Origin: Parapristionchus giblindavisi
Taxonomy: Eukaryota; Nematoda; Chromadorea; Rhabditida; Diplogasteridae
Length of the DNA stretch: 64,000 nt
Assembly (NCBI GenBank): GCA_943737045.1
Contig: CALSFV010000086.1
Span: 335,187 to 399,186 of the forward strand
Reading direction: 5' to 3'
The notes under the pieces are model-generated. The model searched no databases and was not told where the DNA came from. It saw only the letters and a program-made list of their open reading frames with translations. Shown piece by piece: positions 31,451 to 60,721 of the stretch (the first letter of the stretch is position 1; every line of letters starts with the position of its first letter). The translations under genes were made by a program, and so were the position numbers.

Positions 31451-31970
31451 GCGATTTCAAGTACTGGCGAAAAAAAACGAAAAAAAAATTATTCAATTAA
31501 GAATCACACGGTTCAATTCTTTCGTTTCCATTTTATGGATCGTAAAATTTAGAGATTGTAAAAATTTTCGATGGGGAAAACATTGTTAATTGTTTCTCGA
31601 TTTTTCTATTTAAAAAAAATAAATTCGAAAAGTATTCATTTTTCAAAAATTTTTTTTTTTTTTTTATTTTTCGAAATATTTTTTCGCACAGCTGGTGTGG
31701 ACAGGGATACTGAAAAAAAAAACATTTGAAAAAACACACATCAATGCTATAAATTTTAATATCGATACTATAAGAATTGCAACTGTGTGTTTTCAAATTT
31801 AAAATTTTCTTTCAATGTCATATTTGTTTTTAAATTTTTTGTTGAATTTTTCGAGAAAATAATCGAAAAATAAAGAAAAAAATCAAGTAATCTAAAAACG
31901 AAAAATGTACATTCCTGATTTCCTGTCACTGTAAGACGACTTTGAAAAAGGTTTCCGTGGTTCATAATTT
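31450..31970. repeat. AT-rich dispersed repeat, two segments
   Basis: This is poly-A/T sequence with CGAAAA motifs. One end at 31684-31692 reads CGCACAGCT. The segment near 31745-31785 (ATGCTATAAATTTTAATATC, then AATTGCAACTGTGTG) is clearly related to 45370-45430, and 31530-31560 is related to 33900-33935. So this is a dispersed repeat with copies also around 33750 and 45233. The TGTGCGAAAA-type end resembles hAT-like MITE ends, but target-site duplications were not found. Confidence 0.5.
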
Positions 31971-33552
31971 CAATTACTTCTCTCGTTCATTAAGAAAATT
32001 GCCGTACCAATAGCTGAACCACTAGAAATAATCTTTCGTCATTCTTTTGAAACAGGGGTAGTCCCCTCCCCCTGGCGTCACTCTATCGTTACCCCTGTCA
32101 AGAAATCACCACCATTTTCGGATCCGCTAAACTATAGACCGATTTCTATAACCTCTTTCTTCTGTAGAATATTCGAGCGTTTATTGTGTAAATCTATAAT
32201 AACTCATTGCGAATCGTTAGAAATATTCCCAGATGAACAATACGGTTTCAGACAGAAAAGATCGCGCGAGATGCAGATGTTAGAGGTACTAGAGCATTGG
32301 ACTTCTTCTATCAGTGAAGGAAAACCGGTTGATGTAATATATTTTGATTTTGCGAAAGCTTTTGATAGAGTATCTCATTCTAAACTACTAATGAAACTTG
32401 GTACTGTTGGATTGTCAGATAAGACAGTTAATTGGATATCCGCCTATTTAAGTAATCGATCCTTCCAGGTTAGAGTCCGTGAAAAGCTATCACAGTCACT
32501 TAGTGTTACAAGCGGTGTCCCACAGGGCTCCGTTTTGGGTCCGCTTCTTTTCCTCATATATACCTCGGAAATCCCTTCACTGGCCCAACAAAACGGAGTT
32601 GTAGCTAGAATGTACGCAGATGATATAAAAATTTATCGCTCTTTTGAAGCTGGTGATTCCCCGTTACATCTACAAACAGCAATCGATACCATTGTAAAAT
32701 GGTCAGATGAATGGCAACTTCCACTCGCTGCACATAAATGTAATTCGCTGCACCTAGGTAGATCTAACCCATTGCGAAAATACATTATCGGAACAGCATC
32801 CCTAGAGCAGAGGGATTTGGTTAAGGATCTTGGCTTCTTCATTCAGAAGACCCTAACTTTCTCTACCCACAGCAGGCAAACAGCTGCAAAAGCGAAAACT
32901 GCATGCCATATAATCCTAAGAGCTCTGCGCACCAAAAATGCAACCATCCTAGTAAAAACATATTCAATATATATAAGGCCCATACTTGAAAGTGCATCTA
33001 CAGTTTTTAATCCATACCAAAAAGGTGACAAAAAGATCTTAGAACGAGTACAGAATTATTTCACTAGACGAGTATTCAAGCGCTGTTTTAATGCAGCGTG
33101 GGATTCAATGCCGAAAGTTTCCCTTAGGAATAAACAACTAAATTTAGATACTCTTGAAAAGCGTAGAGAAGAAATAGATATCAAAGCTGCAATGAAATTT
33201 ATCAGAGGTAAATATAGGATCTCAAATATGAAACCTCACTATTTTCGCCCTTATATCACCCATAATGGCCTCAATTTCAACAACCCAGGCTCACGATTTC
33301 ATTACAGGCATAATAGCTTCTTTCCCAGAGCGGCAAGGCTCCTAGTGCAACCGAAAAACCGGATAACTTTCAGTTTCCCTGAGTAAAATTGACTAGAATA
33401 ATATTTGCCTTATCCCATCTGCACATTGCACTTTCTTCAATGTTCACGTTTCATAGTTTTGTCATATGTCCATCATCAATCATTCGATATAATTTAATTT
33501 ATTTTCCTGTGCCGTGTTTTCTTGTAAAACGCATAAATATTATTATTATTAT
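31971..33552 (+). mobile_element. 5'-truncated LINE encoding a reverse transcriptase
   Basis: An open frame from about 31971 to the TGA-less stop TAA at 33384-33386 encodes a reverse transcriptase. It enters mid-domain (SFETGVVPSPWRHSIVTPVK, then NYRPISITSFF). The motifs follow in order: DFAKAFDRVSH, SGVPQGSVLGPLLFLIYTSE and MYADDIKIY with the catalytic Asp pair, then a thumb region. The endonuclease and ORF1 are missing, as in a typical 5'-truncated insertion. About 150 bp of 3' UTR ends in a short ATT repeat (33537-33551). The motifs look like the Jockey/CR1 group of non-LTR elements; the exact clade is uncertain. The reading frame is intact where present. It ends 63 bp upstream of the start codon of the mucin-like gene. 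Confidence 0.85.
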
Positions 33553-33614: not shown

Positions 33615-36600
33615 ATGCGATTGTTATTCGTTTCTCTTCTTCTCTTCATTCCATCAGTTCAATCATCCCAATATTGTAGTAAAACAACAACACCTGCAGA
33701 GACAAGTAAGTGGAGCGCGAATGATGCATGAAGAGGCCTGAAAAATGATGTATGTGAATGATTTTTCGTTTTTCGTTTTTTTTGAAAGAAAAAATCGAAA
33801 AATGCTTTGACACTTCATGCAAAAAAAAAATTATGAAAAAATCGTTTGAAAATATTTTAAAATGGGGAAACAAAAATTACACTTCTACTTGAACAAAATG
33901 TTTCTCCATTTTCTGGATAGTAAAATTTTGCGCATTGATTTGTTCAAAAGTGAAAACAATTTTTCGAAAAAAAATTCAAAAATTTTTCATTTTTTTCGAA
34001 ATTTCTTTGAGATTTTTTTTGCACAGCTCTGATAAGAATGATAGAGGCACACTTGAAATGTGGTTAACATTTAAGGGCTTGTTTAAAAAAAGAAGTGCTG
34101 CATGCAAACTGATTGATGAATATTTGTTCGAATGATAGCTTCGGGGTTATAGCGGCAACTGTCGAGTTACTCAATTCTAATATAAAATTCAGTTGTTACT
34201 AATTCAAAAATACAATTTCAAAATGGTCGCGCTACACGACAGAACAGAATAAAATCGATGCAAATTAAACAGAATCAAATTCGCTGAATTTCAAAGTATA
34301 TAATTGGGAGATTTTCGTGCATGGTGATGATTGGTTACGATATTATTGTAATTTTTATTGTTGAAGCATGTGAAAAAATATTGCCAGTGAATACTATTTC
34401 TGTGCCTGATACCTCATAGCCATATCGGCGATCTGAATGATGAATGAAGTTGCTCGATGTGATTATACGAATGTGAATGCTCACTGTTTACTCATCCACT
34501 GCATTCTCCACTTACTCTAATGGATGTCCATTACAGCCGTCGCCACTACTACTGAACCTCTCACTACTATCCTATTCTTCTGTAAGTGTTTAACACCTAA
34601 CTATGTGACCTTCATCAACGAATTACGGTAAATGATCATTCTGATCCTGTAGGGTCATCATCAGGAGCAACAACGGAGTCGAGTTCAACGACAGATGGTG
34701 GATCATCCTCAAGTCCATTCACATTCCAAACTACAGACGATACAACAATCATCTCATCAACCTATGGTAGATAGTAATCATTCATTCAATGATCAAAACA
34801 GTCCACTGATAGGATCAACAACATGGGAGACACTACCGCCTGATTCAACGACCGGAGCGTCATCATCCACCGAAACGGCTACCGTCTCCAATACTGATCA
34901 ATCATCGACCGTAGAAACTACATTGGGATCGACTGGTGGATCTTCTGAAGGTTGAGAAAAATGTATTTGCTCATATAATCAATTTATTACTGCAGCAACG
35001 ACCGGAGGATCTGCTGCAACGGCTGCTACAACTGCTGAATCGACTGGTGGATCTAGTGAAGGTAGAAAACAACTTTTATTTATTCGAATAATGAATTTAT
35101 TACTGCAGCAACGACCGGAGGATCTGCTGCAACGGACGCAACAACTGTTGAATCGACTGGTGGATCTAGTGAAGGTTGGCAAAACTTTTATTTATTCGAA
35201 TAATGAATTTATTACTGCAGCAACGACCGGAGGATCTGCTACAACGGACGCAACAACTGCTGAATCGACTGGTGGATCTAGTGAAGGTAGAAAACAACTT
35301 TTATTTATTCGAATAATGAATTTATTACTGCAGCAACGACCGGAGGATCTGCTGCAACGGACGCAACAACTGTTGAATCGACTGGTGGATCTAGTGAAGG
35401 TTGGCAAAACTTTTATTTATTCGAATAATGAATTTATTACTGCAGCAACGACCGGAGGATCTGCTACAACGGACGCAACAACTGCTGAATCGACTGGTGG
35501 ATCTAGTGAAGGTAGAAAACAACTTTTATTTATTCGAATAATGAATTTATAACTGCAGCAACGACCGGAGGATCTGCTGCAACGGACGCAACAACTGCTG
35601 AATCGACTGGTGGATCTAGTGAAGGTAGAAAACAACTTTTATTTATTCGAATAATGAATTTATTACTGCAGCAACGACCGGAGGATCTGCTACAACGGAC
35701 GCAACAACTGTTGAATCGACTGGTGGATCTAGTGAAGGTTGGCAAAACTTTTATTTATTCGAATAATGAATTTATTACTGCAGCAACGACCGGAGGATCT
35801 GCTACAACGGACGCAACAACTGCTGAATCGACTGGTGGATCTAGTGAAGGTAGAAAACAACTTTTATTTATTCGAATAATGAATTTATTACTGCAGCAAC
35901 GACCGGAGGATCTGCTGCAACGGACGCAACAACTGTTGAATCGACTGGTGGATCTAGTGAAGGTTGGCAAAACTTTTATTTATTCGAATAATGAATTTAT
36001 TACTGCAGCAACGACCGGAGGATCTGCTACAACGGACGCAACAACTGCTGAATCGACTGGTGGATCTAGTGAAGGTAGAAAACAACTTTTATTTATTCGA
36101 ATAATGAATTTATAACTGCAGCAACGACCGGAGGATCTGCTGCAACGGACGCAACAACTGCTGAATCGACTGGTGGATCTAGTGAAGGTAGAAAACAACT
36201 TTTATTTATTCGAATAATGAATTTATTACTGCAGCAACGACCGGAGGATCTGCTACAACGGACGCAACAACTGTTGAATCGACTGGTGGATCTAGTGAAG
36301 GTTGGCAAAACTTTTATTTATTCGAATAATGAATTTATTACTGCAGCAACGACCGGAGGATCTGCTACAACGGACGCAACAACTGTTGAATCGACTGGTG
36401 GATCTAGTGAAGGTTGGCAAAACTTTTATTTATTCGAATAATGAATTTATTACTGCAGCAACGACCGGAGGATCTGCTACAACGGACGCAACAACTGTTG
36501 AATCGACTGGTGGATCTAGTGAAGGTTGGCAAAACTTTTATTTATTCGAATAATGAATTTATTACTGCAGCAACGACCGGAGGATCTGCTACAACGGACG

Positions 36601-39600
36601 CAACAACTGCTGAATCGACTGGTGGATCTAGTGAAGGTAGAAAACAACTTTTATTCATTCGAATAATGAATTTATTACTGCAGCAACGACCGGAGGATCT
36701 GGTGCAACGGACGCAACAACTGCTGAATCGACTGGTGGATCTAGTGAAGGTTGACAAAAATTTAATTAGTTCGTATAATGAGCCAGTACTACGGTGTTAA
36801 GAGCTTGAAAAATTCTCGAAATGAGGAAAATGCTGTTCAGAAGTTCAAGTCGAAAATGCCCGATTTTGGCCGAAAAAGATGGGTCGACTTTATATGCGTC
36901 GAATCTCGTTTTTAATGAAAAAAAAACAACTAAATTAGGCACGACTGGAGGTTCTGATGGAACCGACGCAACCACACCTGAATCGACTGGTGGTACCAGT
37001 GGCGGTGAGATATTCAAGAAATTCATCTGACGTTGAATGAATGTATGCATGTAGGCACGGCTGGAGGTTCAGGTGGAACCGACGCAACCACACCTGAATC
37101 GACTGATGGTACCAGTGGCGGTGAGATATTCAAGAAATTCATCTGACGTTGAATTAATGTATGCATGTAGGCACGACTGGAGGTTCTGATGGAACCGACG
37201 CAACCACACCTGAATCGACTGGTGGTACCAGTGGCGGTGAGATAATCCAGAATGAAATATTGCTCCAATTTTGAATGACTTTATGCATGTAGGCACGACT
37301 GGAGGTTCTGATGGAACCGACGCAACCACACCTGAATCGACTGGTGGTACCAGTGGCGGTGAGATAATCCAGAATGAAATCTTACTCCAATTTTGAATGA
37401 CTTTATTCATGTAGGCACGACTGGAGGTTCTGATGGAACCGACGCAACCACACCTGAATCGACTGATGGTACCAGTGGCGGTGAGATATTCAAGAAATTC
37501 ATCTGACGTTGAATGAATGTATGCATGTAGGCACGACTGGAGGTTCTGGTGGAACCGACGCAACCACACCTGAATCGACTGATGGTACCAGTGGCGGTGA
37601 GATATTCAAGAAATTCATCTGACGTTGAATGAATGTATGCATGTAGGCACGACTGGAGGTTCTGGTGGAACCGACGCAACCACACCTGAATCGACTGATG
37701 GTACCAGTGGCGGTGAGATATTCAAGAAATTCGTCTGACGTTGAATGAATATATGCATGCAGGCACGACTGGAGGTTCTGGTGGAACCGACGCAACCACA
37801 CCTGAATCGACTGGTGGTACCAGTGGCGGTGAGATAATCCACAATGAAATCTTTCTCCAATTGTGAATGACTTTATGCATGTAGGCACGACTGGAGGTTC
37901 TGGTGGAACCGACGCTACCACACCTGAATCGACTGATGGTACCAGTGGCGGTGAGATATTCAAGAATTTCATCTGACGTTGAATGAATGTATGCATGTAG
38001 GCACGACTGGAGGTTCTGATGGAACCGATGCAACCACACCTGAATCGACTGTTGGTACCAGTGGCGGTGAGATAATCCACAATGAAATATTGCTCCAATT
38101 TTGAATGACTTTATGCATGTAGGCACGACTGGAGGTTCTGATGGAACCGACGCAACCACACCTGAATCGACTGGTGGTACCAGTGGCGGTGAGATATTCA
38201 AGAAATTCATCTGACGTTGAATGAATGTATGCATGTAGGCACGACTGGAGGTTCTGGTGGAACCGACGCAACCACACCTGAATCGACTGATGGTACCAGT
38301 GGCGGTGAGATATTCAAGAAATTCATCTGACGTTGAATGAATGTATGCATGTAGGCACGACTGGAGGTTCTGGTGGAACCGACGCAACCACACCTGAATC
38401 GACTGGTGGTACCAGTGGCGGTGAGATAATCCACAATGAAATCTTTCTCCAATTGTGAATGACTTTATGCCTGTAGGCACGACTGGAGGTTCAGGTGGAA
38501 CCGACGCAACCACACCTGAATCGACTGATGGTACCAGTGGCGGTGAGATATTCAAGAAATTCATCTGACGTTGAATGAATGTATGCATGTAGGCACGACT
38601 GGAGGTTCTGGTGGAACCGACGCAACCACACCTGAATCGACTGGTGGTACCAGTGGCGGTGAGATAATCCACAATGAAATCTTTCTCCAATTGTGAATGA
38701 CTTTATGCCTGTAGGCACGACTGGAGGTTCAGGTGGAACCGACGCAACCACACCTGAATCGACTGATGGTACCAGTGGCGGTGAGATAATCCACAATGAA
38801 ATATTGCTCCAATTTTGAATGACTTTATGCATGTAGGCACGACTGGAGGTTCTGGTGGAACCGACGCTACCACACCTGAATCGACTGGTGGTACCAGTGG
38901 CGGTGAGATATTCAAGAAATTCATCTGACGTTGAATGAATGTATGCATGTAGGCACGACTGGAGGTTCTGGTGGAACCGACGCAACCACACCTGAATCGA
39001 CTGGTGGTACCAGTGGCGGTGAGATAATCCACAATGAAATCTTTCTCCAATTGTGAATGACTTTATGCATGTAGGCACGACTGGAGGTGGTGGAACCGAC
39101 GCTACCACACCTGAATCGACTGGTTCTGGTGGAACCGACGCTACCACACCTGAATCGACTGGTGGTACCAGTGGCGGTGAGATATTCAAGAAATTCATCT
39201 GACGTTGAATGAATGTATGCATGTAGGCACGACTGGAGGTTCTGATGGAACCGACGCAACCACACCTGAATCGACTGGTGGTACCAGTGGCGGTGAGATA
39301 ATCCACAATGAAATATTGCTCCAATTTTGAATGACTTTATGCATGTAGGCACGACTGGAGGTTCTGGTGGAACCGACGCTACCACACCTGAGTCGACTGG
39401 TGGTACCAGTGGCGGTGAGATATTCAAGAAATTCATCTGACGTTGAATGAATGTATGCATGTAGGCACGACTGGAGGTTCTGATGGAACCGACGCAACCA
39501 CACCTGAATCGACTGATGGTACCAGTGGCGGTGAGATAATCCACAATGAAATATTGCTCCAATTTTGAATGACTTTATGCATGTAGGCACGACTGGAGGT

Positions 39601-42600
39601 TCTGGTGGAACCGACGCTACCACACCTGAATCGACTGGTGGTACCAGTGGCGGTGAGATATTCAAGAAATTCATCTGACGTTGAATGAATGTATGCATGT
39701 AGGCACGACTGGAGGTTCTGATGGAACCGACGCAACCACACCTGAATCGACTGGTGGTACCAGTGGCGGTGAGATATTCAAGAATTTCATCTGACGTTGA
39801 ATGAATGTATACATGTAGGCACGACTGGAGGTTCTGATGGAACCGACGCAACCACACCTGAATCGACTGATGGTACCAGTGGCGGTGAGATATTCAAGAA
39901 ATTCATCTGACGTTGAATGAATGTATGCATGTAGGCACGACTGGAGGTTCTGGTGGAACCGACGCAACCACACCTGAATCGACTGGTGGTACCAGTGGCG
40001 GTGAGATAATCCACAATGAAATCTTTCTCCAATTGTGAATGACTTTATGCATGTAGGCACGACTGGAGGTTCAGGTGGAACCGACGCAACCACACTTGAA
40101 TCGACTGATGGTACCAGTGGCGGTGAGATAATCCACAATGAAATATTGCTCCAATTTTAAATGACTTTATGCATGTAGGCACGACTGGAGGTTCTGATGG
40201 AACCGACGCAACCACACCTGAATCGACTGGTGGTACCAGTGGAGGTGAGATAATCCACAATGTAATCTTTCTCCAATTGTGAATGACTTTATGCATGTAG
40301 GCACGACTGGAGGTTCTGGTGGAACCGACGCTACCACACATGAATCGACTGATGGTACCAGTGGCGGTGAGATATTCAAGAATTTCATCTGACGTTGAAT
40401 GAATGTATACATATAGGCACGACTGGAAGTTCTGATGGAACCGACGCAACCACACCTGAATCGACTGATGGTACCAGTGGCGGTGAGATAATCCACAATG
40501 AAATATTGCTCCAATTTTGAATGACTTTATGCATGTAGGCACGACTGGAGGTTCTGATGGAACCGACGCAACCACACCTGAATCGACTGGTGGTACCAGT
40601 GGCGGTGAGATATTCAAGAAATTCATCTGACGTTGAATGAATGTATGCATGTAGGCACGACTGGAGGTTCTGGTGGAACCGACGCAACCACACCTGAATC
40701 GACTGGTGGTACCAGTGGCGGTGAGATAATCCACAATGAAATCTTTCTCCAATTGTGAATGACTTTATGCCTGTAGGCACGACTGGAGGTTCAGGTGGAA
40801 CCGACGCAACCACTCCTGAATCGACTGATGGTACCAGTGGCGGTGAGATAATCCACAATGAAATATTGCTCCAATTTTGAATGACTTTATGCATGTAGGC
40901 ACGACTGGAGGTTCTGATGGAACCGACGCAACCACACCTGAATCGACTGGTGGTACCAGTGGCGGTGAGATATTCAAGAAATTCATCTGACGTTGAATGA
41001 ATGTATGCATGTAGGCACGACTGGAGGTTCTGATGGAACCGACGCAACCACACCTGAATCGACTGGTGGTACCAGTGGAGGTGAGATAATCCACAATGAA
41101 ATCTTTCTCCAATTGTGAACGACTTTATGCATGTAGGCACGACTGGAGGTTCTGGTGGAACCGACGCTACCACACCTGAATCGACTGATGGTACCAGTGG
41201 CGGTGAGATATTCAAGAATTTCATCTGACGTTGAATGAATGTATGCATGTAGGCACGACTGGAGGTTCTGATGGAACCGACGCAACCACACCTGAATCGA
41301 CTGGTGGTACCAGTGGAGGTGAGATAATCCACAATGAAATCTTTCTCCAATTGTGAATGACTTTATGCATGTAGGCACGACTGGAGGTTCTGGTGGAACC
41401 GACGCAACCACACCTGAATCGACTGGTGGTACCAGTGGCGGTGAGATAATCCACAATGAAATCTTTCTCCAATTGTGAATGACTTTATGCATGTAGGCAC
41501 GACTGGAGGTTCAGGTGGAACCGACGCAACCACACCTGAATCGACTGATGGTACCAGTGGCGGTGAGATAATCCACAATGAAATATTGCTCCAATTTTGA
41601 ATGACTTTATGCATGTAGGCACGACTGGAGGTTCTGATGGAACCGACGCAACCACACCTGAATCGACTGGTGGTACCAGTGGAGGTGAGATAATCCACAA
41701 TGAAATCTTTCTCCAATTGTGAATGACTTTATGCATGTAGGCACGACTGGAGGTTCTGGTAGAACCGACGCTACCACACCTGAATCGACTGATGGTACCA
41801 GTGGCGGTGAGATATTCAAGAATTTCATCTGACGTTGAATGAATGTATACATGTAGGCACGACTGGAAGTTCTGATGGAACCGACGCAACCACACCTGAA
41901 TCGACTGGTGGTACCAGTGGCGGTGAGATAATCCACAATGAAATATTGCTCCAATTTTGAATGACTTTATGCATGTAGGCACGACTGGAGGTTCTGATGG
42001 AACCGACGCCAGGGTTGTGCGTAAAATGAAAATTTTACGGATACGTAAAAACAAACAATCTACGGATTCAAAATCCGTAAAATTCCGTAAAATCCGTAAA
42101 ATTCGTAAAATCTTTAAAACATGCTTGTCGTTTGACATTTCTGTATCATAACAGTATGTATTTACATATCAACGCAAAGATTGACAACAATGAAACAGCA
42201 CTTCAAACGAAGTGAAAAAGTGGATCTGCACAATTAATAATTAGTCGAAACCACATCACTGGATGTTCTTTTTGCACTTAGGAGAATTCAGAAATTTTTA
42301 TGGTTTGACTATGTTCAGTAAGAACGTAGTGACACTAGTTACTCATAGAACTGCTGTATAATTTTTTGCAAGCAAAAAATCATTTTTTGCTCAATTTTCT
42401 CTTATTGTTAAGGATTTCTTTCTTTAAATTATTTTTCGGATTGTACGGATTTTTATTTTACGGAATCCGTAAAATAAATATTTTACAGCCAATACCGTAA
42501 AATCTATAAAATCCGTAAACGTAAAATCCCATCCCTGTTTTGGAATCATTTTTAGCCTGGACTAAAAGTGCAAATTTATTCGAGACTAAAATCTAGTCCA

Positions 42601-45452
42601 TCTAACAACACTAGTATGCATGTAGGCACGACTGGAGGTTCTGGTCTTACCGACGCAACCACACCTGAATCGACTGGAGGTACCAGCGGAGGTGAGATAA
42701 TCCAGAATGAAATTTTGATGTAATGTTGAATGAATATGTTCATGTAGGCATGTACTCTTGAATCAACTGGAGGTAATGGAGCAAAATCATCATAACAAGA
42801 GTCATTATCTGTCCACTCAAATTCACATTTCGTATTACACGGCATACAATACAAATCCACCTCATAAACACATCCACAATAAAAAAATCAACACACTCTC
42901 TCAATGTACTCACCTTGATTCGGAACTGTTGTCGTTCTCTGGTTTTTTTCTCCCAGTAGGGCCCCAGCAAAAGTGGGCGTGGTTTTGCTCCCCCAGTGGT
43001 TTCCCAGGACAAGAGAGTGCTCTAAAGATGGCGAATCATGCAGATTTCTTCTCACTGGTCCCCCAGTAAATCTCCCACTGGTCCCCCAGAGAAAACTATG
43101 CGACCACGACCAGCACGACGTGTGATTAATATATTGCAGGTTGCACTAATGGCTATAATCAATTACCGGGAGAAGTGGCGGATGGTAATTCTGGAAAGTT
43201 CGTCGGCGTCTTTACGACCTCTGCTGCTTGTCAAGAAGCTTGCACGAATGTCGTAAACTATGGTCTTCTACAATGTCTCGGAGTTGTTTATTGGAGAAAA
43301 AACGGAACTTGTCATGTCATACAGTATGAACTACCAAAGATGGTGGAGGATGGAGTTGATGGTAGTGGAGGAGAGGCATATGTCAAGTGTGGAATTTGTA
43401 AGTTCCTTCATTAGCATCATATTGATTGTGTATGATGAGATGTTTTATGAATGAGCATTAAAAGATGCTCAAGGTTCGAACAATATTATAGCTACTCCAA
43501 CGCATGTTCCATCGATTGGAACAACAGTGACCACAACACAATTGCCCATCACTACCACCGTTGTTGTTCCTTCGACAACAACTACAGAATCGATACCAGT
43601 CACGACGACCACAATCCCGTCTGGAACAACAACAACTTCGGCGGCTCCAGGAAGCACTACCACTACTTCTGGTACGTTGCTTGTAACTACCACTACGATT
43701 GGTCATGGTGAGCATTTCATTGATATGGTTTTGAAAGACCTGGTGAAGCTTTCATGCATGTGTTGTTCGAAATAAAATTGATAAATGATTGCGTTTGGTA
43801 TGTGAATTTGTGAGTGATATATGCATATCTTTGTCACTACCAATAGTGTCTCAGAAACCATTGCATGATTCGATTGTTCTTACAGAGCAAACAACAACAA
43901 CAAATTTTGTTCCATTATCTACAACTTCATCCTTACCAACAACGACGATGCCTTATGTAACATCTACGACAACACCGTTTAATGTAACAGGAGGAGAAAC
44001 TACTCCCACTTCTGACCAAATATCTATCACTACAACTCTACCGACGCTGGGTGAGAGTTGATAGATATATAGATATCGATTTGTTTATTTTATGAAGTAT
44101 TCGTGCTTCAACTGCGAGATACAAAGATATGGTGTTTTTGATGTGTCTGCATGATTTGTGATTAATTTCAGCAGGATGCACGAATGGATACAGTAAATTG
44201 CATGGAGTGGTTGAGGACGGAAATTCCGGGAAGTTTGTTGGTATCTTCACAACATCAACGGCGTGTCAAGAAGCATGCACCAGATTTGTCGATTATGGTC
44301 TTCTACAATGTCTCGGAGTTGTCTATTGGAGAATAAATGGAACCTGTACTGTCATGCAATATGAGATACCCAAGATGGTCGAGAATGGAGTAGATGATAG
44401 TGGAGGAGATGCTTATGTCAAGTGCGGTGGTGGTAAGTTACTTCTCAACAAAAAAAAACAAAAAAAAAACTTTTATGAGACTGTGAAATAAGCAAACTTT
44501 GTTTGAACGCAAGAGCATGAAACAGACTCGATGAATAATCAGAACGATGATTTGTTTTAGCAACACCCACTGCTCTTCCATCAAATGGAACAACATCGAC
44601 AGTTACAGAAACATCAAGTACTATAGAGTTGACAACAACTACCGTCTCTGTGCCAATTACCACCACGAGTATAGAAATTCCTTCCACTTCAACCACATCT
44701 CCGATATATACTACTATTCCTCTAACAACGACTACTCAATCTCCAACACAGACGGTTCCAATAACAACTTCAATGCATTTGTGTATGTTTGTTGTGTCAT
44801 CTGAAGTATTGATGTGCATTGTTCTGAGAATGAATTGTGATTAGAGTTTTGAGTGTGTTTTCAGCCTCGACAACAACTGCACTTCCACTCACAACGTCCA
44901 CCAATCCTTTGCAAAGTATGGTTGTGAAGGATGATCAATATATGAAGACTTTGTAGTAACAGTCATTACTACTACAGATGGATGTACGAACGGATATCGA
45001 CAGAAGAAGGTCGAGAGATTAGAGGCAGGACAAGGAAAGTTCGCGGGATACTTCCATGATATATGGTCATGTGGAGAGACGTGTACTCGAGTATGTTTGA
45101 TCTTTTCAATTTTTATCTAATATAAGCTAACACAAGTAAAATATTTTATGTACATTCATTTTATTCTATGAATTTTATCATCAACACATTTTGAACTCTT
45201 CTCTTGTTATCATTATTTGTCTGGTTTCATGCCAGGGTTGTGCGAAAATTTTTTTAAATTTTTTAAAATTATTCTGAAAAAATTTTTTCGAAATTAAAAA
45301 TTCGGAAAATTCGAAAAAAAAAATTCAAAAAATTAGACACAATTAACATGTTTTCTCTTTCGAAAACAACAATGCTCTAAATTTTACTATTCATTAAATT
45401 TAAACGTATAAGCATTGCAACTGTGTGACTTTTAATTGAAAATGCTTTCATG

Positions 45453-45490
<38 letters not shown>

Positions 45491-47385
45491 ATGCTCACGC
45501 ATGAACGAGACTATTGAAATAATTGCGAAATAATAAGTGATAATTGTATATTTTACTCAAGTGTTTGTTTCCAAATGAAAATTTGTTAATATCATAAATT
45601 TTGGAAATTTTGCGCTTTTTATATCAAAGCATTTTTCGAATTTTTCGATTTTTCGAGAAAAAACCGAGAAAAACGATAAAACTCACGATCATAGATATAA
45701 GATGTACATGCATACAATGTACATACAAAAGAAAAAAAACCTACCACAGTTAATTGATCGAATTGATGTTTTTTATATAGATGTTAATATATAATTTCAC
45801 ACAATTATAGTACGAAGGATACGGCCTTCTCCCATGTCTCGGTTTTACATATCGATCGAGTGATGGCAATTGCATAGTTCTGCAATACAATTTACCAGCG
45901 GAAAGGTATCCATCATGAAGTAGAAAATGTTCGATCGATTTCTGTTCCAGTACCGATCCAAATTGTGCCCATTGTGATATTCTCTACGAGTCTTGTGATC
46001 CTCATCCAACACAGACAGTCCCTCAGATTACGACTACTTCGACTCCGATTACCAATCCTTCTGGATGTGGAAACATCTACAATGAACCCATAGAGAATGT
46101 TGTAGCTCCTGTTGGAGAGGTACGGTCTGGTCTACCCTGTGAGAGAAAAACCAAATATGTATAGAAGAAAATATTTGAAAAAAATGTGTTTCAATTGCTA
46201 ATTATCCTATTAAACGGTAAAGTATTTTTCAAAAAAAATTTTAAATTGAACTTTTTTGCGTCATTTTTCAATTTTTTTGGATGAAGTAGCGGCTTTTCTC
46301 AGTAAATGGTATTCTCGATAAAGACCTCTTCGTACTAAATATTAATTGTAAATGTTTAATTGAAGGGAACCAAGTTCGGTGGTTACTTCGAGACAGCCAC
46401 TGCGTGCTCTGATCTCTGTGGCAACTTCCTGTACTATGGAATCATACCGTGTTATGGGTAGTTATGCTTCCGACTCTGAAGTTCATTATAAAGGCAGACT
46501 TTCAGATACTTTTATGACAAATCGAAGAATGGATACTGCATGATCATTCAATATCCGATCAAAACGATTCAGAAGGATCCTTCGAGTCAAGCTGTTCTTG
46601 TTACAAAGTAAGGCAATGAATTATTATCTTGTCTCATAAAACGCCTCAAATTCTAGTATATTACCTTTTATTTCAGATGTAGTCGCCCCATAACCGGCCA
46701 TGATCCTACTCCATCAACATCGGAACCTGCTATAACGACAACTACCGTACCTTTTATTCCTACTACAACGGTGCCTGTTATTACCACGACAACTGCCCAA
46801 GTACCAATTACAACGACGACAACTCAAGCCCCTGTAGTAACTACAACTACTGTAACTGGAGGTACACACATTATTCATATCTTACGATGAAATCCATTTA
46901 TATATAATGTCTTAATAGTTCACTGATTTTCAAATATGATCACCATAATTGAAATCCTAAAATACTAAAACTGGAAGATATTTGTATGATTGCTGATGAG
47001 TTGAGATCCTTTCATCTTACAGCTTGTGATCAAGGTTTCATCGTAGTAGATGAACATGCAGATATGACTTCGTTTGGACAAGGTTCGTATCCAGGAATCA
47101 ATCTTATATTTGATAATCTTTCTTGATAATCTATCTCATTTCAGGAAAGTTCGGTGGTTACTTTTCGTTCGAATCCTCATGTCTCGAATTATGCGCCAGT
47201 AACTACGGTATTCGAACATGTATCGGATATGCGTATGAGCCTAGTAATAGAGGAAAATGTACACTATTTCAGTATGAAGTAAGGCTATCTTTGATATTTT
47301 GAATCAAACAGTGATGACGTAATTACAGATCACATCTCATCAATCAAATCCCAATAGCAACGCCAAATTTGTCTTGAAATGTTAA
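33615..47385 (+). CDS. Secreted mucin-like protein with exon-array stalk and cysteine modules
   Basis: My model has 78 exons and about 2165 aa with agreeing phases. Unique 5' exons are 33615-33705 (signal peptide MRLLFVSLLLFIPSVQS), 34537-34581, 34653-34766 and 34813-34950. Then come the two exon arrays (listed separately) and an outlying repeat exon, 42626-42691. Downstream exons are 43140-43397, 43492-43707, 43886-44050, 44172-44432, 44561-44782, 44865-44915, 44978-45090, 45811-45905, 45951-46119, 46366-46457, 46506-46607, 46677-46861, 47023-47082, 47145-47278 and 47329-47385. The stalk is Thr/Ser/Gly-rich, as in O-glycosylated mucins. Five modules follow with the pattern C..GY, GKFxGxF, CxxxC, YGLxxCxG, GxCxxxQY, KC (six Cys). 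They resemble apple/PAN-like folds, but that is tentative. Thr-rich linkers separate the modules. The protein is probably extracellular (cuticle, mucus or surface coat). A TACTTCAG acceptor at 33552-33559 could serve trans-splicing. Confidence 0.85.
33750..34032. repeat. AT-rich dispersed repeat copy in intron 1
   Basis: Poly-T and TCGAAAA sequence ending TTTGCACAGCTCTG at about 34020-34033, in the first intron of the mucin-like gene. The segment TCCATTTTCTGGATAGTAAA (33906-33925) matches 31528-31547 (TCCATTTTATGGATCGTAAA), which places it in the same family as the 31.5 kb repeat. Confidence 0.5.
34996..36749 (+). repeat. Exon-intron tandem array 1: 16 units of 112-113 bp
   Basis: Sixteen 66-nt exons start at 34996, 35109, 35221, 35334, 35446, 35559, 35672, 35784, 35897, 36009, 36122, 36235, 36347, 36459, 36571 and 36684. 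Each reads (from phase 1) ATTGGSATTDATTAESTGG plus SSE, with few changes. The 46-47-nt introns start GTAGAAAAC or GTTGGCAAAA and end TTATTACTGCAG or TTATAACTGCAG. Because each exon is 22 codons and starts and ends in phase 1, units can be added or skipped without a frameshift. The copies are nearly identical, so collapse or expansion in assembly is possible. Confidence 0.9.
36939..42009 (+). repeat. Exon-intron tandem array 2: 43 units of mostly 116 or 122 bp
   Basis: The first exon is 36939-37004 and the forty-third starts at 41979 but is broken at 42009. Complete exons are 66 nt and encode (phase 1) GTTGGSDGTDATTPESTGG plus TSG; one is 102 nt. Introns come in two forms. Form A is 50 nt (GTGAGATATTCAAGAAATTC start). 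Form B is 56 nt (GTGAGATAATCCACAATGAA start). Both end ATGCATGTAG. All inter-exon spacings are 116 or 122 bp except one of 152. The peptide unit is homologous to that of array 1 (TTGGS, DATT, ESTGG) with the same length and phase, so both arrays derive from one ancestral exon. Exons starting 39935-40417 recur in order at 41375-41857, a 1440-bp higher-order repeat. Confidence 0.92.
42010..42537. mobile_element. Insertion breaking the last array exon
   Basis: The array-2 exon starting at 41979 is interrupted after 31 nt by CAGGGTTGTGCGTAAAATG. The inserted sequence is packed with TCCGTAAAAT repeats and ends near 42537 with CCCATCCCTG, an imperfect inverted copy of its start. CAGGG-type ends suggest a hAT-like non-autonomous element, and a CAGGGTTGTGCG start occurs again at 45233. 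I see no 8-bp target duplication, so the right boundary or later rearrangement is uncertain. A further repeat-like stretch (42540-42600) follows before the outlying exon at 42626. Confidence 0.6.
42945..43108. repeat. Intronic element with repeated CCCAGTGG motifs
   Basis: TCCCAGTAGG, CCCCAGTGG, CCCCAGTAA, CCCACTGG and CCCCAGAG recur between 42948 and 43092. The outer ends (CTCTGG near 42938 and CCCAGAG near 43085) are roughly inverted. This resembles the small inverted-repeat elements in the Pins-like gene. It lies in the intron before the first cysteine-module exon of the mucin-like gene. Confidence 0.4.
45233..45690. repeat. AT-rich dispersed repeat copy with (TA)n
   Basis: It begins CAGGGTTGTGCGAAAATTT, like the insertion at 42010. 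It contains a block related to 31745-31785 (AATTGCAACTGTGTG-type) and a (TA)n microsatellite at about 45457-45488. It enlarges the intron 45091-45810 that splits the third cysteine module of the mucin-like gene. The right end is unclear. Confidence 0.5.
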
Positions 47386-53034: not shown

Positions 53035-55769
53035 TCACTGATTGGCAATGGCATATTGTGCCATGAGATGATTGAACATTAACGATGAAAGCATGAGATT
53101 ATTGAGATTCGTCGCTCCCAATGGAGATGGAGGTTGTTGTTGTTGCTGTAGGAGACCCAACAGTGGTAGCTGAAATTGTGAAGATTACGGTAGGATACGG
53201 TAGGTAAAACCATATTGGAATACGGTAGGTGATCATTACGGTATACGGTATTATGGTTACGGTACCTGTGAGGACATGAGGGCGGCTACGGTAGCGTCGG
53301 GTGATGCAGAGGCGGCTTTGAGAAGAGAGAAGGAGTCCATGGGGTCGGAAGTAGAGGGATGAGAAGATGAATGAAGGGGAGATGAAGAAGATGATGAGAG
53401 AGTTGATGTGGCCATTGGTAGCGATGCAGTCTGTAATGAGGTTACGGTAATACAATAATCAACAGGGTTACTGTAATCAAGAGATATCGTAATACAAACC
53501 GTCGCAGTAATGTGCTGGGCGGGTTTGGGACTGTAGGGGGCGGGGCGAGTCTTTCTCTTTCTTGGACGATATACGTAGTTGGGATGCTCACGGAACAACT
53601 CGTCGCGAAGTTCTTTCGCCTGGAAAGATCAAAGATCAATCAGGGATCAAACTACAAAGATTAAAGATCACAAACCTTTTGGACAAATGGCGCTTTTTGA
53701 TCATCGTTCATCTCTCTCCATTCAACACCGAGGGCTTTACTGATCAAAGAGTTGTGCACCTGAACAAATCAAAGATCAAAGATCAGAATAAAAATTTAAA
53801 GATCAAAGATCAAAGTTCAAGCTACACCATACCTTGCTGCTCGTGGCAGTGATCTCAGCGCGTCGCATCTGTGCCCAGACCTAGAACATTATCAATTTGA
53901 TTCTCATCGATTATTGATCGATTATTGATCATTGATCGATTAGTATTCGTCCCCGTATCGAGTCATTTGCCATCTGTTCTATTTGTTGTATGAGAATAAG
54001 AAAGACGGGGACGAGGAGGTTAAAGAGAGAGAAAGAATAGACCTTTTTCCCCATTCTCCTGTCATTTCTCTTGTCATCTTGAAAACCATTGTTAGTACAA
54101 TACTCGAATACAATGCAAGATACACTTACTCTCTTCTATACCTTCTCTTTTGCCACGAAACAGAACAAACATACCTACCTTCTTCTATTCAATATCTAAT
54201 CCACTAGTGTCACACACAATGAGACTACGGTAGTAGCGATTTACCAAATGGTTACGGTAGACTCACCATAAATGCGTTCATGGGTCGTTTAATCTTCTCG
54301 CCAGTCGGTGTACGATCAGGTCCGAAGGGGCAGATATCGATTGAGGATACGGTAGATGTGGGTTGAGATCCAGAGGATGTAGTAGATGAGGAATCAGAAG
54401 TGGGAGGAGGAGTGGGGAAGTCGGGCATGGTTACGTCTATCTGGAATGATGATGATGAGGATGAGGAATGAGAGAGGGAAGAGAGCAGAAGAGACGGCAG
54501 AGATAGAGATAGACAAGAGATCTAAGAATGGAGAAGAGACGGAAGAGACGAGAGAGTGAAGAGCTTAAGAGAGACGGATAGAGAAATAGACAGACTAGAA
54601 GACGCCGCAGTATGATATGAATCGGTACCGTATCCCTGGTCATAATACGGTACTCGATGTACCTAATATAATATGAGTAATTGAAGAAATGATAAAGTGT
54701 TTGTGACTGAGAGTATGGAGAAGGAGAAATAAAGAAGAAGAAGAAGAATGAAGGAACAAAACAGACGATGACTACTAACATTACAAGTAATAGTGCATTG
54801 TTCTCAACTTAAAAGATATGCGATCAGACTACGATAGGCTACGGTAGATAGGACTGAATACGGTAGTCTGGAATCCTAGACTGCAGATTGAATGATAGTA
54901 ATACTAGTTGAAGTAAAAGTAGGCGTATGATATAATGGAGACTCTTGGGTTATTGATAAAGATGATGAATAGAATAGAATAGAGAGAGAAGAGAAAAGAG
55001 TAGTACATGTACCCTTCTAGTCGTCTATTCATTCATTCTATCTCTACCTCTACCTCTCCCTATGCCTCTACCTCTTCCTCTACCTCTCCTTCTCTCTCTC
55101 CCTCTCCCTCTGCCTCTTCCTCCTTCTATCTATCTCCCTATCTCTCATCTACAACACAAGAATAACACCCATCTATATCTATCTCAATCTCTCCCTCTCC
55201 CTCTCTGCCTCTCCCTCTCTACCTCTTCCTCATCTCTTTTCATCATATGCTACTCCACCGTCATAAAGATTACATTATTATTACTATTAAGGATAAATAA
55301 TAAAAGAAGAAGTAATATGTAAATACGTGTATATCTATATCTCTCCCTTATAATCTCCTTCTTTTCCCCTTTTCTCACATGACATCGTAGTTTCCGAGGC
55401 TTAAGACATCCTTAATCCTAAGGACTGTCTTAATATCACCTTAGCTTTAAGGTCATGGCTTAAGTCGGACGATCCTAAGCATGATTCAGAAAGCGCTGAT
55501 GAATGAATGTAGAAGAAGGAACATGAATGATGACAATGAGATGAGAGAGGGAAGAGGGATAAAGAGATCGGAAGAGAAACAGACAGAATGAGAGATCACG
55601 CAAAAGTGAGAGAGCAACAATGACAAAAAGATGGTGTTCTACATGGAGTACTGCAAATCACTCATAGATGAGAGAGTATATGAAACTGAGAGAGAACAGA
55701 GAAAGAGAGATAGACGAGAGAGTATGGAAATAGTGGAGAGTATACCTTGAGATCAGTCGATGAAGACAT
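53035..55769 (-). CDS. SOX-family HMG-box transcription factor
   Basis: The model gives 249 aa from exons 55769-55746, 54440-54267, 53880-53833, 53759-53676, 53619-53500, 53430-53266 and 53169-53035, nearly all phase 0. The first exon is open further upstream to an acceptor at 55806, so the start may lie farther 5'. Residues about 57-127 form an HMG box: KIKRPMNAFMVWAQMRRAE, VHNSLISKALGVEWREM, KAPFVQKAKELRDELF, EHPNYVYRPRKRK. RPMNAFMVW and HPNYxYRPR are SOX hallmarks. SOX proteins bend DNA at ATTGT-like sites and control development. The usual conserved block between the two halves is altered (EITATSSK), so I cannot assign a SOX group. Flanks are Ser/Thr/Pro-rich; the C-terminus has a short poly-Gln run and a Leu-rich end. 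Confidence 0.88.
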
Positions 55770-57462
55770 CCTTGTAGATGATAAAGAAGACGACTGTCGA
55801 TTGATCTGGAGATAATCAATAATTAGAGAGGTACGGTAGTCTTAGGGTGGGTCAGATGTTGGGACAGATTGGCGACGAACAAACTATAAGCGAAGTAATA
55901 AACGATTGAAGTAGGAAGTACATAAATGGTTTGAATGAGAAAAAGAAGAAGAAGAAAAGATGAGATAATAGAATATGTTAGAGTAGTGTAGTGGTAGGTA
56001 CACATGAAGAGAGAGAGGGAGAGGGAGAGGGAGAAAGGGAGAGGGAGAGGGAGAGGGAGAGGGAGAGGGAGAAAGGGAGAGGGAGAGGGAGAGGGAGAGT
56101 ATAGTCACAAATGATGGTATCTAGTCAATTGAAAGAGAAAAGAGGTTGATCGGGAATCTCTAAAAGAAAGAAGAAAAGAAAGAGGAGGAAGGAACATGAA
56201 TCAACGTACAATCATATCCATTCTATTATATCCTATATCATTTCTTTTATACTATATTATATTCTAATCATAATATATTATATAAAAGAATACTATTATA
56301 AAGAAGTATAATCTAAATAAATATGAAAGAATACAATGGCATTTGCGCTTCGCTGCCCTGCACGTGCTTTGTCCCACACCGAAAAACAATTACCGTACTA
56401 TAATGGATTACGGTATTTCGTGGGATACTGTATAGTCGTCTGAGAAGACAGACGACGATGTCTACAGACGATCATGACGTCACTGTTGACAATGGGTACA
56501 AAGGAGGGAAGGAGATATGGATGAATAATTAGATGAGGTATAAACATTATGTCTGATATGAAGGAGATAATGGAAGAGTCTAGACGGATGATGAAAGATG
56601 AGATGATAAAGGGAATAAGGACTATGATGAATTGAGAGTTCAAAAGGATAAATGGGAAAATGAAGGTATAATGTCAAAAGAGTCCCGATTCAATATGGCA
56701 TTTGAATACTCGGTCAATTAGAAGTATTCAGATGATATGGACTATCAAAGTTGAGGTAAGACAGATGATATGTTCTGACAGAAGTGTTGGATTGACAAAG
56801 TAGACTTGTAACATATGATTTGGACTGACAAAAGTAGAGGAACTGAGTAACCACTGATATTGACAAAACAAGATCGACTATAACAATGAGAGTGGTTTCA
56901 TTCATAAAAGGGAACATAGACACGCCCCTCTAATCAGTCAATTATCAATAGATTAGAAGGAGAGAAGGGATTCCGACGGAAGATGAAGAAAGAAAGCTCT
57001 TGATTGCTTGAGAATACATCTAGAGGGATAGAACATGTGAGAGAGGGAGGGGGAGAGGGAGATAGGGAGAGGGAGAGGGAGAGAGGGAGGGAAAAGTAGA
57101 GGGAGAGGGAGAGAGGGAGAGGGAGAGATCCAAGAGGTAGAGATTCCGGTCAAGAAGGTGTAAATGGAGACAATTAGTCGGCCACTTCTACTGATGATAG
57201 AAAGGCAACACGACGAGAGATGAAAAGGAGAGGGAGGGAGAGTGAGACAGAAAAGGGAGAGGGAGAGATGAAAAGGAGAGGGAGGGATGGGAAGAGGGAG
57301 AGGGAGAGAGCATGCACAGTGATATACCAGTAGATGTACTGTATGAGAATGATAATCATTGAGATAATGAGAAAATAGAAATAGAAAAAAAGTATATGGG
57401 TGTAGAGACGTCTGTGAGAGACAATCATTATGGTAAAGTTCATTCAATATCGTTTGTCATAA

Positions 57463-57574
57463 GTCACACCCCCGAGATAACTTTACTCTCCACTCTGTCA
57501 ACGCTATCTCGAATACAAAGCAAGCGAGAGAGCATTACCAGAGCGGAGAGTTTCAAATTAGCTCGGGGTGTGTC
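57463..57574. mobile_element. 112-bp hairpin MITE
   Basis: The left half GTCACACCCCCGAGATAACT pairs with the right half ending GCTCGGGGTGTGTC. Imperfect pairing continues about 35 bp inward (ACTCTCCACTCTG against CAGAGCGGAGAGT). Non-coding. Confidence 0.6.
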
Positions 57575-57990
57575 TAATGAAAAATTAAGAGATAATGCTT
57601 AAAAGTTCACAACATTCATTTTCGAAACTATTTAGCTATACATGCAAGGAACAAATATCTCAACTATATCATTTATTGTTTTTTTTAACAAAAGAATAAC
57701 AATAAGGATTGTTATCATAAGCTCTATCACTTCCAGTACATTTGTGATAGAGAGAATTAATTGATAGAAAGTATGCCTTTACGGGAAAGAAATGAATCAA
57801 AGTTGAGGTATTTTTAAGATTTCAAAGGTCGAAGGAACGCAAATTTAGTGTGATTTACGAGCAAAACAATGGTGAGTCTCTAGTGCAAGATGAAGAGATA
57901 TGAAGAGATGAAGAAGAGATAGAAGGAAAGAAGGAAGAGGAAGAGAAGATGGTATACAATCTAGTGGAGGTATATCAAAGGAAGAGGACA

Positions 57991-58112
57991 CTTAAAGAGA
58001 GCGTAACCTCTCTGAATGGCCTCTTCATTGCGCACACTATTTTCTGTTCTCTAACAATGAGAGAGCATTGTGCGTCGAAGAGACCATTGAGTGAGGTTAC
58101 GCTCCCTTTAAG
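57991..58112. mobile_element. 122-bp hairpin MITE with CTTAAAG ends
   Basis: The left end CTTAAAGAGAGCGTAACCTC and the right end (read as reverse complement) CTTAAAGGGAGCGTAACCTC are nearly identical inverted repeats. Pairing extends about 45 bp to TTGCGCACA and TTGTGCGTC. Non-coding. Confidence 0.65.
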
Positions 58113-60014
58113 AACCGTTTGTGATATGAATAGAGAGAGAGAGAGGGAGAGGGAGAGACAATATAAAAAGGATACATACCGAGAACGGAAGACTGTCCAT
58201 AGACTCGATTGTTTCGACTAATCAAGATTATTCAAAGATGAACAAAGAGAAGAGTATAATGCAAAGTAGAGAAATATGATAAATACGCATTGATAGCACA
58301 AGGTACAGTATAGTTATATTCCTTTTCTTGAATGGACAGAGTTTATTCAGACACAACATGAGACTCCAAAAGCTCCCATTTTTTACTCTATTACCATCCA
58401 ATCTGGCGATGTATCACCTTACCAAATTTGAAAACACAAAGCCACGAGAATAAACTTCGAATCTCTATATAGGTATCCATGAATAGTGATAACTTTTTGA
58501 GGAAAGTCGTGGTCACAATGGGTGAATTCGGGAAAACAGTGGGCCTATGGTTATGACTTCATAGTTGACGGGTAGTTCATAGTTGATGATTCATTGTGTT
58601 TCATGGATCTCGATTGAATATGACAGAGGAAACTACGATCAAACCCTCACTCAAGGAATGAATTAGAATAACAGAGCCAATTACTGTTTAGAATACGTTT
58701 CTCCCCTTCTCCCTCTTCCTCCTCCTCTTCCTCTCCTCTCTCTCCTTCTCCCTCTTCCTCCACCTTTTCCTCTTCCCCTCCTCTCTCCCCCTCTACTATC
58801 TTTCCTTCTCCCTCTTCCTCTCTCCCTCTCCTTTCCCCCTCTCTCTCCTTCTCCCTCTCCTTCTCCCTCTCCCTCTTCCTCTCAAACAATGGTCATTCGG
58901 TTATCTTTTCATTCAAGGCCGATTCTCTTCGTATATCAGATGAAATGAATGAGACTAATTCAATGATAAAATGAATACTCAGATTACTTCGAACCTTGGA
59001 TTACTGCTCTACCTCTCCCTCTGCCTCTATTCCTCTCCTTCTCTCTCCTTCTCCCTCTACCTCCCCCTCTACCGCTCCCTGTCTACCTCTCCCTCTACCA
59101 CTCTCTCTCCCTCTCTCTCTCTCCACTCCCCCACCTCTTCATCTCTTCTCTGCCTATCTATGAATCTTCTTCATCTCTCTCGATTGAGAGTAAAAGGGGA
59201 ACGAAATCGGTTAAACTGAGACAAAATTGAATAATGTGAATGGGCACAAGAAAGAGGATAGAAGAATGGAAGGGGAACGGTAAGTAAGGAGAGAGGGAGA
59301 GGGAGGGGAGAAAAGGAAGGGGGAGAGGGAGGGGAGGGGAGAAAGGGAGAGGGAGAGAGGGAGGTGAGGGGAGAAAGGGAGAGGGAGAGAAGTGAAGGTA
59401 GAGAGAGAGATGGAGAGAGAGAGAGAGAGTACTTGTAGGGTTACTATCTAGTACCATCTCTTTTCTTTCTCAGTAAAATGACCATCAAGGAGACAATTCC
59501 ACAATGGGAAAATAGAGAATGAAAGGATGGAGGGAGAGGGAGAGGAGAAGGAAAAGGAGAGGAAAGGAAGAGGTGGACCAGGAGTGAGAGGGCGAGAAAG
59601 TCTTCAATACCATTGTTTTTATTGTGATATAAACTACAGTACTCCTCCACATTCATTTGGCGCTCTGTCAAATGAGAAAGACAAGAAGAATTTTGATTGA
59701 GATTAATGATTCAATGATGGGATTGAGGGGGAGAGGGAGAGGGAAGGAATAAGGAGAGGGAGAGGGAGGGAATAAGGAGAGGGAGAGGGAGAGGGAGAGA
59801 CCGAAAGGGGTGGGTTCATTGTTGTGAGTTCTTGACTGGACAATAGTTGCATCTGCTCATGAATAGTAATCGATTGAATGAGAAGAAAGAAGAAGAAATA
59901 CAGTAAGTAGAATATTTATTACTCAAAAGGGAATGGTCTGAGGACACATATCCCGATCTTCACGAAACATACTAATTGTTAATCCATATGCTATGTGGTG
60001 TTCAAGTCATGAAA

Positions 60015-60110
60015 ATAAAAGAAAAGTAGGCGAGAGAGTGTGTAAAACGAGGAAAGTTTTCTTCGATTTTCATTTCTTTTCATTTCTTTTGAACAGAGAC
60101 CATGATGAAC
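60015..60110. repeat. Dispersed repeat around GTGTAAAACGAGG
   Basis: The core GAGAGNGTGTAAAACGAGG followed by a T-rich tail (TTTTCATTTCTTTTGAAC) occurs here and near 50897-50960, 61765-61815 and 62755-62815, with an inverted copy near 60335-60395. The copies are diverged, which points to an old dispersed repeat family. Confidence 0.6.
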
Positions 60111-60721
60111 TGGGTGAATTGGAATATGTTTCATTGAATAACCTTATGGGAATATTCGGAAATGAATTCAATTCTGCTGAGATTCCGTAACAACCTTATT
60201 AATAATTATTATCGATTAAGTCATAAAACAACTTAAGTGTTGATTAAACTTTTAATGCGATCAATTAAAAGAAAAAAATGAAAAGATTTCAATTAGGTTG
60301 TGGTGTGTGTTGTTTAATAGTAACGAACCGAAAATACACTCTCTTCGTTTTGTACACTCTCTCGTCCTTTTTCATTTCTTTTCATAACTTTCGAACAATA
60401 CATAACAATGAAGGATTGTTGTAGTGTTCATACCGTAGTGTATAATAGTTGAGGACAAGAATGGAATACAATGTTGATGTACTTAAAGGGAAGAAGAAGA
60501 AGAAGAATACAAATAAGAATGAGAGAATAATGATTAGAAGGAGGAAGAAATGAAGAACAAAAAGGTCGGCTATTGATATCAGAGGAATTGTTAGAGATAT
60601 TAGGACAGAGGAGGGAGAGGGAAAGAGATTGGAGAGAGGAAAAGGGAGAGGGAGGGATGGAGAGAGAGAGGTGAAAGGGGGGGAGAAAGATGGAGGGAGG
60701 GATAAAGGGAGAGAGGGGCAG

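Follow-up and report, generated by a model that had tools for sequence, protein, structure and literature searches.

Several genes are known in which exons and introns are repeated together, and they and some partly similar systems are summarised here as the passages of the cited papers describe them. In SmPoMuc of Schistosoma mansoni, the 27-bp exon 2 and its flanking introns repeat in units of about 1 kb. No gene of this multigene family has more than 20 copies; transcripts carry as many as 100, for which the authors invoke trans-splicing. Conversion among these units is confined to the intronic part while the exons differ between clusters, and silk introns are cited in the same paper as more homogenised than silk exons (PMC2576457). 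The MaSp2 genes of Argiope contain repetitive exon-intron pairs. Their introns, which alternate with the paired exons, are homogenised (97.6% average pairwise identity within a gene), and some genes have two alternating intron types, a feature that the authors knew from no other eukaryotic gene (PMC9779670). According to papers that cite them, SOWgp and the flagelliform silk gene are precedents of this kind. In human LPA, the kringle IV-2 variable number tandem repeat (VNTR) consists of 1 to ~40 exon-plus-intron units and makes up to 70% of the protein (PMC11462820). Schistosome micro-exon genes carry symmetric exons of 6-36 bp in one description (PMC5825161), and exons of 3-81 bp with introns of up to 5 kbp in another (PMC10526429). 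Drosophila dumpy encodes a huge extracellular protein with a PIGSFEAST region of ~40 near-identical repeats, which is thought to reflect unequal crossing over (PMC2930355), and LET-653 of C. elegans is a secreted PAN-mucin-ZP glycoprotein of the apical matrix (PMC4970718). Here we analyse a stretch of 64,000 nucleotides from the nematode Parapristionchus giblindavisi (assembly GCA_943737045.1, contig CALSFV010000086.1, positions 335,187 to 399,186 of the forward strand), called the window below. We think it quite probable that it contains a 78-exon mucin-like gene with PAN domains whose stalk grows by unequal exchange of exon-plus-intron units.

Arrays of exon-plus-intron units in one open frame

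The arrays were delimited by Tandem Repeats Finder (TRF) and then divided into units at the splice borders. TRF found two adjoining arrays, 34928-36781 and 36936-42009, with scores at the unit period (3216 for array 1, 5467 for array 2) far above chance. Cut at the splice borders, the interval 34996-42626 holds 60 unit starts, 59 with a complete exon and a 60th that is broken. An earlier note on this DNA had proposed that the tandem repeat consists of a whole exon with a whole intron, and both the unit cutting and the introns bear this out: 56 array introns measure 46-56 nt and repeat in tandem with the exons. The same note counted 16 copies, then 43, plus one outlier. The 16 and the outlier stand, but array 2 has 42 complete units and the 43rd is broken. 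All but one of the 42 array-2 exons are 66 nt long; the remaining one (39075-39176) is 102 nt long, the 36 additional nucleotides being an internal in-frame duplication. Array-1 introns are of 47 nt (n=8) or 46 nt (n=7), with one of 189 nt leading into array 2, and array-2 introns are of 50 nt (type A, n=20) or 56 nt (type B, n=21), the final one being of 703 nt. Long introns (189, 703 and 448 nt) are found at the array junctions. The unit is 112-122 bp long (116 or 122 in array 2), and the 59 exons lie within 7.7 kb. When a 301-base array-1 probe was compared with the 251-Mb genome, all 28 matches listed at E<=0.001, the query included, were on its own contig; such counts are lower bounds.

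A gene model was assembled manually on the genomic sequence alone, with GT-AG borders and reading phase as guides. It joins the array exons to four exons upstream and fifteen downstream, giving 78 exons (33615-47385) and a single open frame of 2174 amino acids (aa), and all 77 introns have GT-AG borders. The array exons supply 1310 of the 2174 residues, in agreement with the roughly 1300 of about 2165 estimated earlier. Phase 1 is the entry phase of exon 2 and of all later exons through the one at 44978, with which the third PAN domain begins. Since the array exons are entered in this phase and are 66 or 102 nt long, and thus symmetric, any number of them could be added or skipped in frame; the previous proposal of 66-nt phase-1 exons, in units whose number can change and which can be skipped without loss of frame, is therefore upheld in the model (phase 1-1 symmetric). 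The 59 complete exon copies, which exclude the broken 43rd copy of array 2, contain no stop codon and no frameshift. Among the 58 introns that follow array-1 and array-2 exons, retention of a single intron would introduce an intronic stop in 52 cases, and the remaining six, all of 47 nt, would shift the frame. Tiny introns occur outside the arrays as well, of 46 nt (at 34767), 45 nt (45906), 48 nt (46458) and 50 nt (47279); introns of 45-50 nt in the non-repetitive part indicate that such lengths are ordinary in this gene model. The 45-nt intron 3' of exon 4 has 77-79% identity to the array-1 intron consensus. A degenerate 25-nt unit near 42748 was excluded from the model, as hand reading found a stop in the running frame. 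A minus-strand gene over array 2, where open reading frames (ORFs) reach 326 aa, was also rejected: the unit lengths of 116 and 122 both leave a remainder of 2 on division by three, so that no minus frame recurs from unit to unit.

The predicted product is probably a secreted mucin-like extracellular protein with a signal peptide, a Ser/Thr/Gly stalk and five PAN/apple-like domains. The stalk of 1310 aa is a long Ser/Thr-rich tandem repeat domain, as in mucin-like proteins, with 46% Ser+Thr and 372 Gly residues, and lacks both Cys and N-glycosylation sequons; by its composition it is probably O-glycosylated. In the C-terminal 735 aa, Pfam PAN_1 was matched over three stretches (E 1.2e-8, 35.1 bits vs a gathering score of 21.4), and the N-terminal 151 aa gave no Pfam match. 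The five Cys-rich domains have 18 invariant columns in common, including six Cys, with domains 3-5 being 32-41% identical to domain 1. We infer the splicing, secretion, glycosylation, length variation and function of this mucin-like gene from its sequence.

Probable exchange between units and the histories of exons and introns

Array 1 contains only 8 distinct units among its 16 and an exact repeat of 693 bp at an offset of 563 bp (five units), while array 2 contains 28 distinct units among 42, its longest exact repeat being of 295 bp. The exact repeats and the low number of distinct units indicate that amplification was recent and block-wise. Within array 2 variants are reshuffled: among 40 units, all four variant combinations were found in 10 of 34 pairs of variable sites, and exon site 19 is shuffled with respect to exon site 52, and both with respect to intron type. 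Taken together, the exact repeats, the few distinct units and the four-combination pairs point to exchange between units. The four-combination pairs suggest that exchange tracts are sometimes shorter than one unit, recurrent mutation being an alternative source of the combinations. Linkage is also seen, since a T at exon base 32 occurs before A introns only (7/7) and an A at exon base 65 before B introns only (4/4). Run tests did not detect significant alternation of intron types, either in array 2 (27 A/B runs vs 21.5, p 0.057) or in array 1 (p 0.13).

The mechanism we propose is as follows. The 59 symmetric phase-1 exons, all of 66 nt except the one of 102 nt, would have been copied each with its intron of 46-56 nt, in two arrays. 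Non-allelic exchange, by unequal crossing over and by short conversion-like tracts, would add, remove and homogenise whole units, and as every symmetric exon moves with its intron, no gain or loss would disturb the frame. The length of the stalk would then be set by genomic copy number, and possibly by exon skipping as well. It could be objected that the copy number is itself partly an artefact of assembly, with blocks collapsed or duplicated; the 693-bp exact repeat would fit this, as would the end of the contig, which coincides with that of the window ~21 kb beyond the last unit. We consider this very improbable. Array 2, with its 28 distinct units among 42 and no exact repeat beyond 295 bp, speaks against it, and both arrays lie on one contig with unique flanks and contain landmarks (the 189-nt spacer, the 102-nt exon and a repeat insert). 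Moreover, such an error would alter the count but not the design of the unit.

Exons and introns of the arrays were compared. Introns of types A and B in array 2 are only 72-73% identical, whereas the consensus sequences of the exons preceding them (19 and 21 exons) are 97% identical, with no fixed difference. The earlier description of near-identical micro-exons holds for the exons but does not extend to the introns, which in array 2 form two lineages and between arrays are barely alignable. Diversity per column in array 2 (40 of 42 units) was 0.033 in exons, 0.057 at four-fold sites (n=14) and 0.165 in intron cores, from which the first and last six bases had been trimmed; the bootstrap interval for the difference between intron and four-fold diversity was 0.018 to 0.193. 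Since intron diversity exceeds that of four-fold sites, the excess does not reflect protein constraint alone. Exons and introns of array 2 thus appear to have separate histories, uniform exons being placed on two intron lineages. No intron excess was found in array 1 (15 of 16 units), with values of 0.011 for introns, 0.007 for four-fold sites and 0.022 for exons.

How the two intron lineages came to share one set of exons may be accounted for in another way, namely that intron B entered array 2 by replacement from elsewhere and that exons are not exchanged between intron lineages. This is possible, though we lean against it. In Argiope MaSp2, introns turn over fast with little disturbance of exon homology, according to the cited passages (PMC9779670), which would suit a replacement. 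However, end-to-end alignments of intron A, intron B and the outlying intron show 72-82% identity and common sequence at both ends, which suits descent from one ancestor, and the shuffling of exon sites 19 and 52 against intron type is hard to reconcile with exons that do not exchange.

Between the two arrays the introns are barely alignable, with 58% and 61% identity in two comparisons vs ~53% for shuffled sequences. Despite this, exon length, phase and boundaries are alike in both arrays, and the exon consensus sequences are 76% identical. These consensus exons differ at 8.5 of 19.7 synonymous sites (0.43) and 7.5 of 46.3 nonsynonymous sites (0.16), a comparison of few sites made without a significance test. 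This suggests purifying selection, between arrays only.

Splice sites, the broken unit and the surroundings of the gene

Several results weigh against the gene model and the exchange of units proposed above. The first of these concern the splice sites. A matrix was built from the 17 other introns of the gene, and these were scored leave-one-out as a control, giving means of ~5.1 for donors and ~6.1 for acceptors (6.9 and 7.7 when not left out). Array-1 means were 4.0 for donors and 7.3 for acceptors. In array 2, donors averaged 3.9 and acceptors 0.9 (examples 0.45 and 3.14); of the 17 control acceptors, one scores less than 0.9 and four score less than 3.14. In addition, the site used was the top-scoring one in 24 of 56 units for the donor and in 18 of 56 for the acceptor. 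For example, in the type-A unit at 38239, two stronger GT lie inside the intron, a stronger AG lies 14 bases past the donor, too near to close that intron, and an exonic AG equals the acceptor used (0.47 vs 0.45). In the type-B unit at 38355, both the donor and the acceptor used are top-scoring. By hand reading, use of the later GT in intron A would bring in an in-frame stop. Array 2 may therefore be inefficiently spliced, judging by these scores, and the earlier claim that every copy is individually spliceable should be read as a proposal, given the array-2 acceptors (0.9 vs ~6.1 in controls). Further points on this side are that 24 of 34 site pairs lack all four combinations, some being tightly linked, and that purifying selection was not detected within arrays, where 2 of 6 variants in array 1 and 6 of 14 in array 2 are synonymous (random expectation 0.31 and 0.32, respectively). 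For the PAN domains, a structure model from two sequences was poor (pLDDT 56), and a profile search of the PDB gave one weak match (E 0.03), to the 50-residue chain BCR4. The order of elements in that model was strand-helix-strands, which is what a PAN/apple fold would give.

The 43rd unit of array 2 is interrupted by an interspersed repeat of ~528 bp (Table 1). It matches sequences on many contigs, and among the 40 of 365 candidates that were scored most matches stop at query base 528-531. Between its 3' end and the outlying unit lie ~77 bp of different sequence and, next to the unit, the last part of an array intron. The 703-nt intron can skip the broken unit in frame. We also considered the repeat as the source of a special in-phase donor in unit 43 and rejected this, since 5 of the 11 GT listed in the open stretch are in phase, not clearly above a third. 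A sequence beginning CAGGGTTGTGCG is also found within the 45091-45810 intron of the mucin-like gene.

These results bear on a reading in which the arrays are intronic minisatellites, exon 4 (or array 1) is spliced directly to the first PAN exon, and the unit frames are what is left of a single earlier exon. It would be consistent with the weak acceptors of array 2, with the missing signal of purifying selection within arrays and with an array 2 that tolerated an interspersed repeat; moreover, exon 4 could be joined to the first PAN exon in frame, both borders being in phase 1. Against it stand the 59 complete exon copies without stop or frameshift, the identical exon length and phase in arrays whose introns barely align, the excess of synonymous differences between arrays, and the fact that the sole exon length variant is in frame (+36 nt). 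For these reasons we judge it unlikely, and we retain the reading of the arrays as exons of one gene. A more elaborate form of the latter would be a mucin length dial with two levels, in which DNA exchange sets the number of mini-exons, weak symmetric splice sites set their inclusion by tissue, and exchange in array 2 is mainly exonic. We regard this as a long shot. If true, a single homogeneous set of exons would be associated with two intron lineages that have diverged, the opposite of silk and SmPoMuc, in which homogenisation is described as led by the introns.

Table 1. Features of the mucin-like gene and its arrays, in positions of the window
Feature	Position	Strand	Remarks
Exon 1	33615..33705	+	start codon, likely signal peptide MRLLFVSLLLFIPSVQS; frame and GT-AG model, signal by inspection
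Exons 2-4	34537-34581, 34653-34766, 34813-34950	+	Ser/Thr-rich, phase-1 entry
Array 1	34996..36749	+	16 exons of 66 nt, 46/47-nt introns; ATTGGSxxTDATTxESTGGSSE and close variants
Inter-array intron	36750..36938	+	189 nt
Array 2	36939..41922	+	42 complete exons, 50-nt (A) or 56-nt (B) introns; GTTGGSxGTDATTPESTxGTSG and close variants
43rd array-2 unit	41979..42009	+	5' 31 nt of exon left; 3' half and unit donor gone
Interspersed repeat	42010..42537	+	interrupts unit 43; ends CAGGGTTG...CATCCCTG, inverted-looking, like a short inverted-repeat element
Outlying unit exon	42626..42691	+	66 nt, own donor
PAN/apple-like domain 1	43140..43397	+	one exon, phase-1 entry
Linker exons	43465-43707, 43886-44050	+	Thr-rich; gene model
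PAN/apple-like domain 2	44172..44432	+	80% identical to domain 1
Linker exons and PAN/apple-like domains 3-5	44561..47385	+	stop codon 47383-47385

The surroundings of the gene were also surveyed. An ORF of 472 aa at 31968-33386 on the plus strand matches the reverse transcriptase family RVT_1 (E 5.6e-32) and ends ~230 bases 5' of the start codon of the mucin-like gene. Downstream, a gene from 48101 on the plus strand has an apparent signal peptide; its exons were joined by eye and gave no Pfam match. Tandem repeats of the GAGAGG type (or CTCTCC) cluster near both ends of the window, at 54900-64000 and 3900-6300. In the 100 kb upstream, taken as ten stretches, two tandem repeats have a period of at least 45 and at least 3 copies, with periods of 476 bp (9 copies) and 65 bp (4.1 copies); the former (L020:5427-9715) has 99% matches and is on the same contig. 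A Pfam search of ten stretches from 70 listed ORFs gave nothing above the gathering score, and an Rfam search of the whole window gave no match at the gathering score. A search for SL1 RNA gave no match, nor did it give any in the control genomes.

The locus among described systems

The earlier view that few such genes are known is right, although SmPoMuc, the silk genes, SOWgp and LPA are close precedents; no nematode gene of such design was among the matches listed in the open-licence literature. The comparisons that follow extend as far as the passages cited in the opening paragraph. By its design, SmPoMuc seems to be the closest known system: it too is a secreted mucin in which a signal peptide is followed by a variable stretch, and a small exon with its intron forms the homogenised tandem unit. 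The likeness is one of architecture, and the present gene differs in its 66-nt exons, its units of 112-122 bp, the presence of 59 of them in one gene and its PAN domains. In array 2, moreover, it is the exons that are more uniform than the introns. Argiope MaSp2 and flagelliform silk resemble the present gene in their repetitive exon-intron pairs and homogenised introns, of two types in some genes. In contrast to MaSp2, the A and B introns are interspersed here and the exons preceding them have no fixed difference, and the product is of the mucin/PAN kind and not a silk. LPA is likewise a coding VNTR of exons plus introns, but its units measure 5.6 kb and hold two exons for a kringle domain, as against the single-exon Ser/Thr/Gly stalk units of ~0.12 kb here.

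Other systems resemble parts of the design. Schistosome micro-exon genes have small symmetric exons that can be skipped in frame and encode secreted proteins. The 66-nt exons of the present gene are within the 3-81 bp range of one description (PMC10526429) but longer than the symmetric exons of 6-36 bp that account for the bulk of the coding sequence in such genes, and a long array of near-identical exons is not mentioned in the passages describing them (PMC5825161, PMC10526429). The repeats of dumpy lie in one large exon, so that its unit is without introns. LET-653 is, like the predicted product, a secreted mucin-like protein with PAN domains; an exon array is not mentioned in the passage describing it (PMC4970718). 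It combines PAN with ZP, and scans of the C-terminal 735 aa and the N-terminal 151 aa of the present protein detected no ZP domain.

The gene offers a small natural system in which the growth of repeat proteins could be followed. A single long read can cover the 7.7 kb, and copy-number mutation, exon inclusion and homogenisation can then be scored on individual molecules; genes with kilobase units, LPA among them, lend themselves less to this. The gene also raises the question of how the spliceosome keeps register over ~59 near-identical 66-nt exons separated by introns of 46-56 nt, the majority of which lie in array 2 and have weak acceptors, and it is a candidate counter-example, to be confirmed, to the view that homogenisation of exon-intron arrays is led by the introns. 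Thus the kind of gene is known, and what sets this locus apart is its compactness and copy number, both extreme against the cases compared, and the unusual uniformity of exons over introns in array 2.

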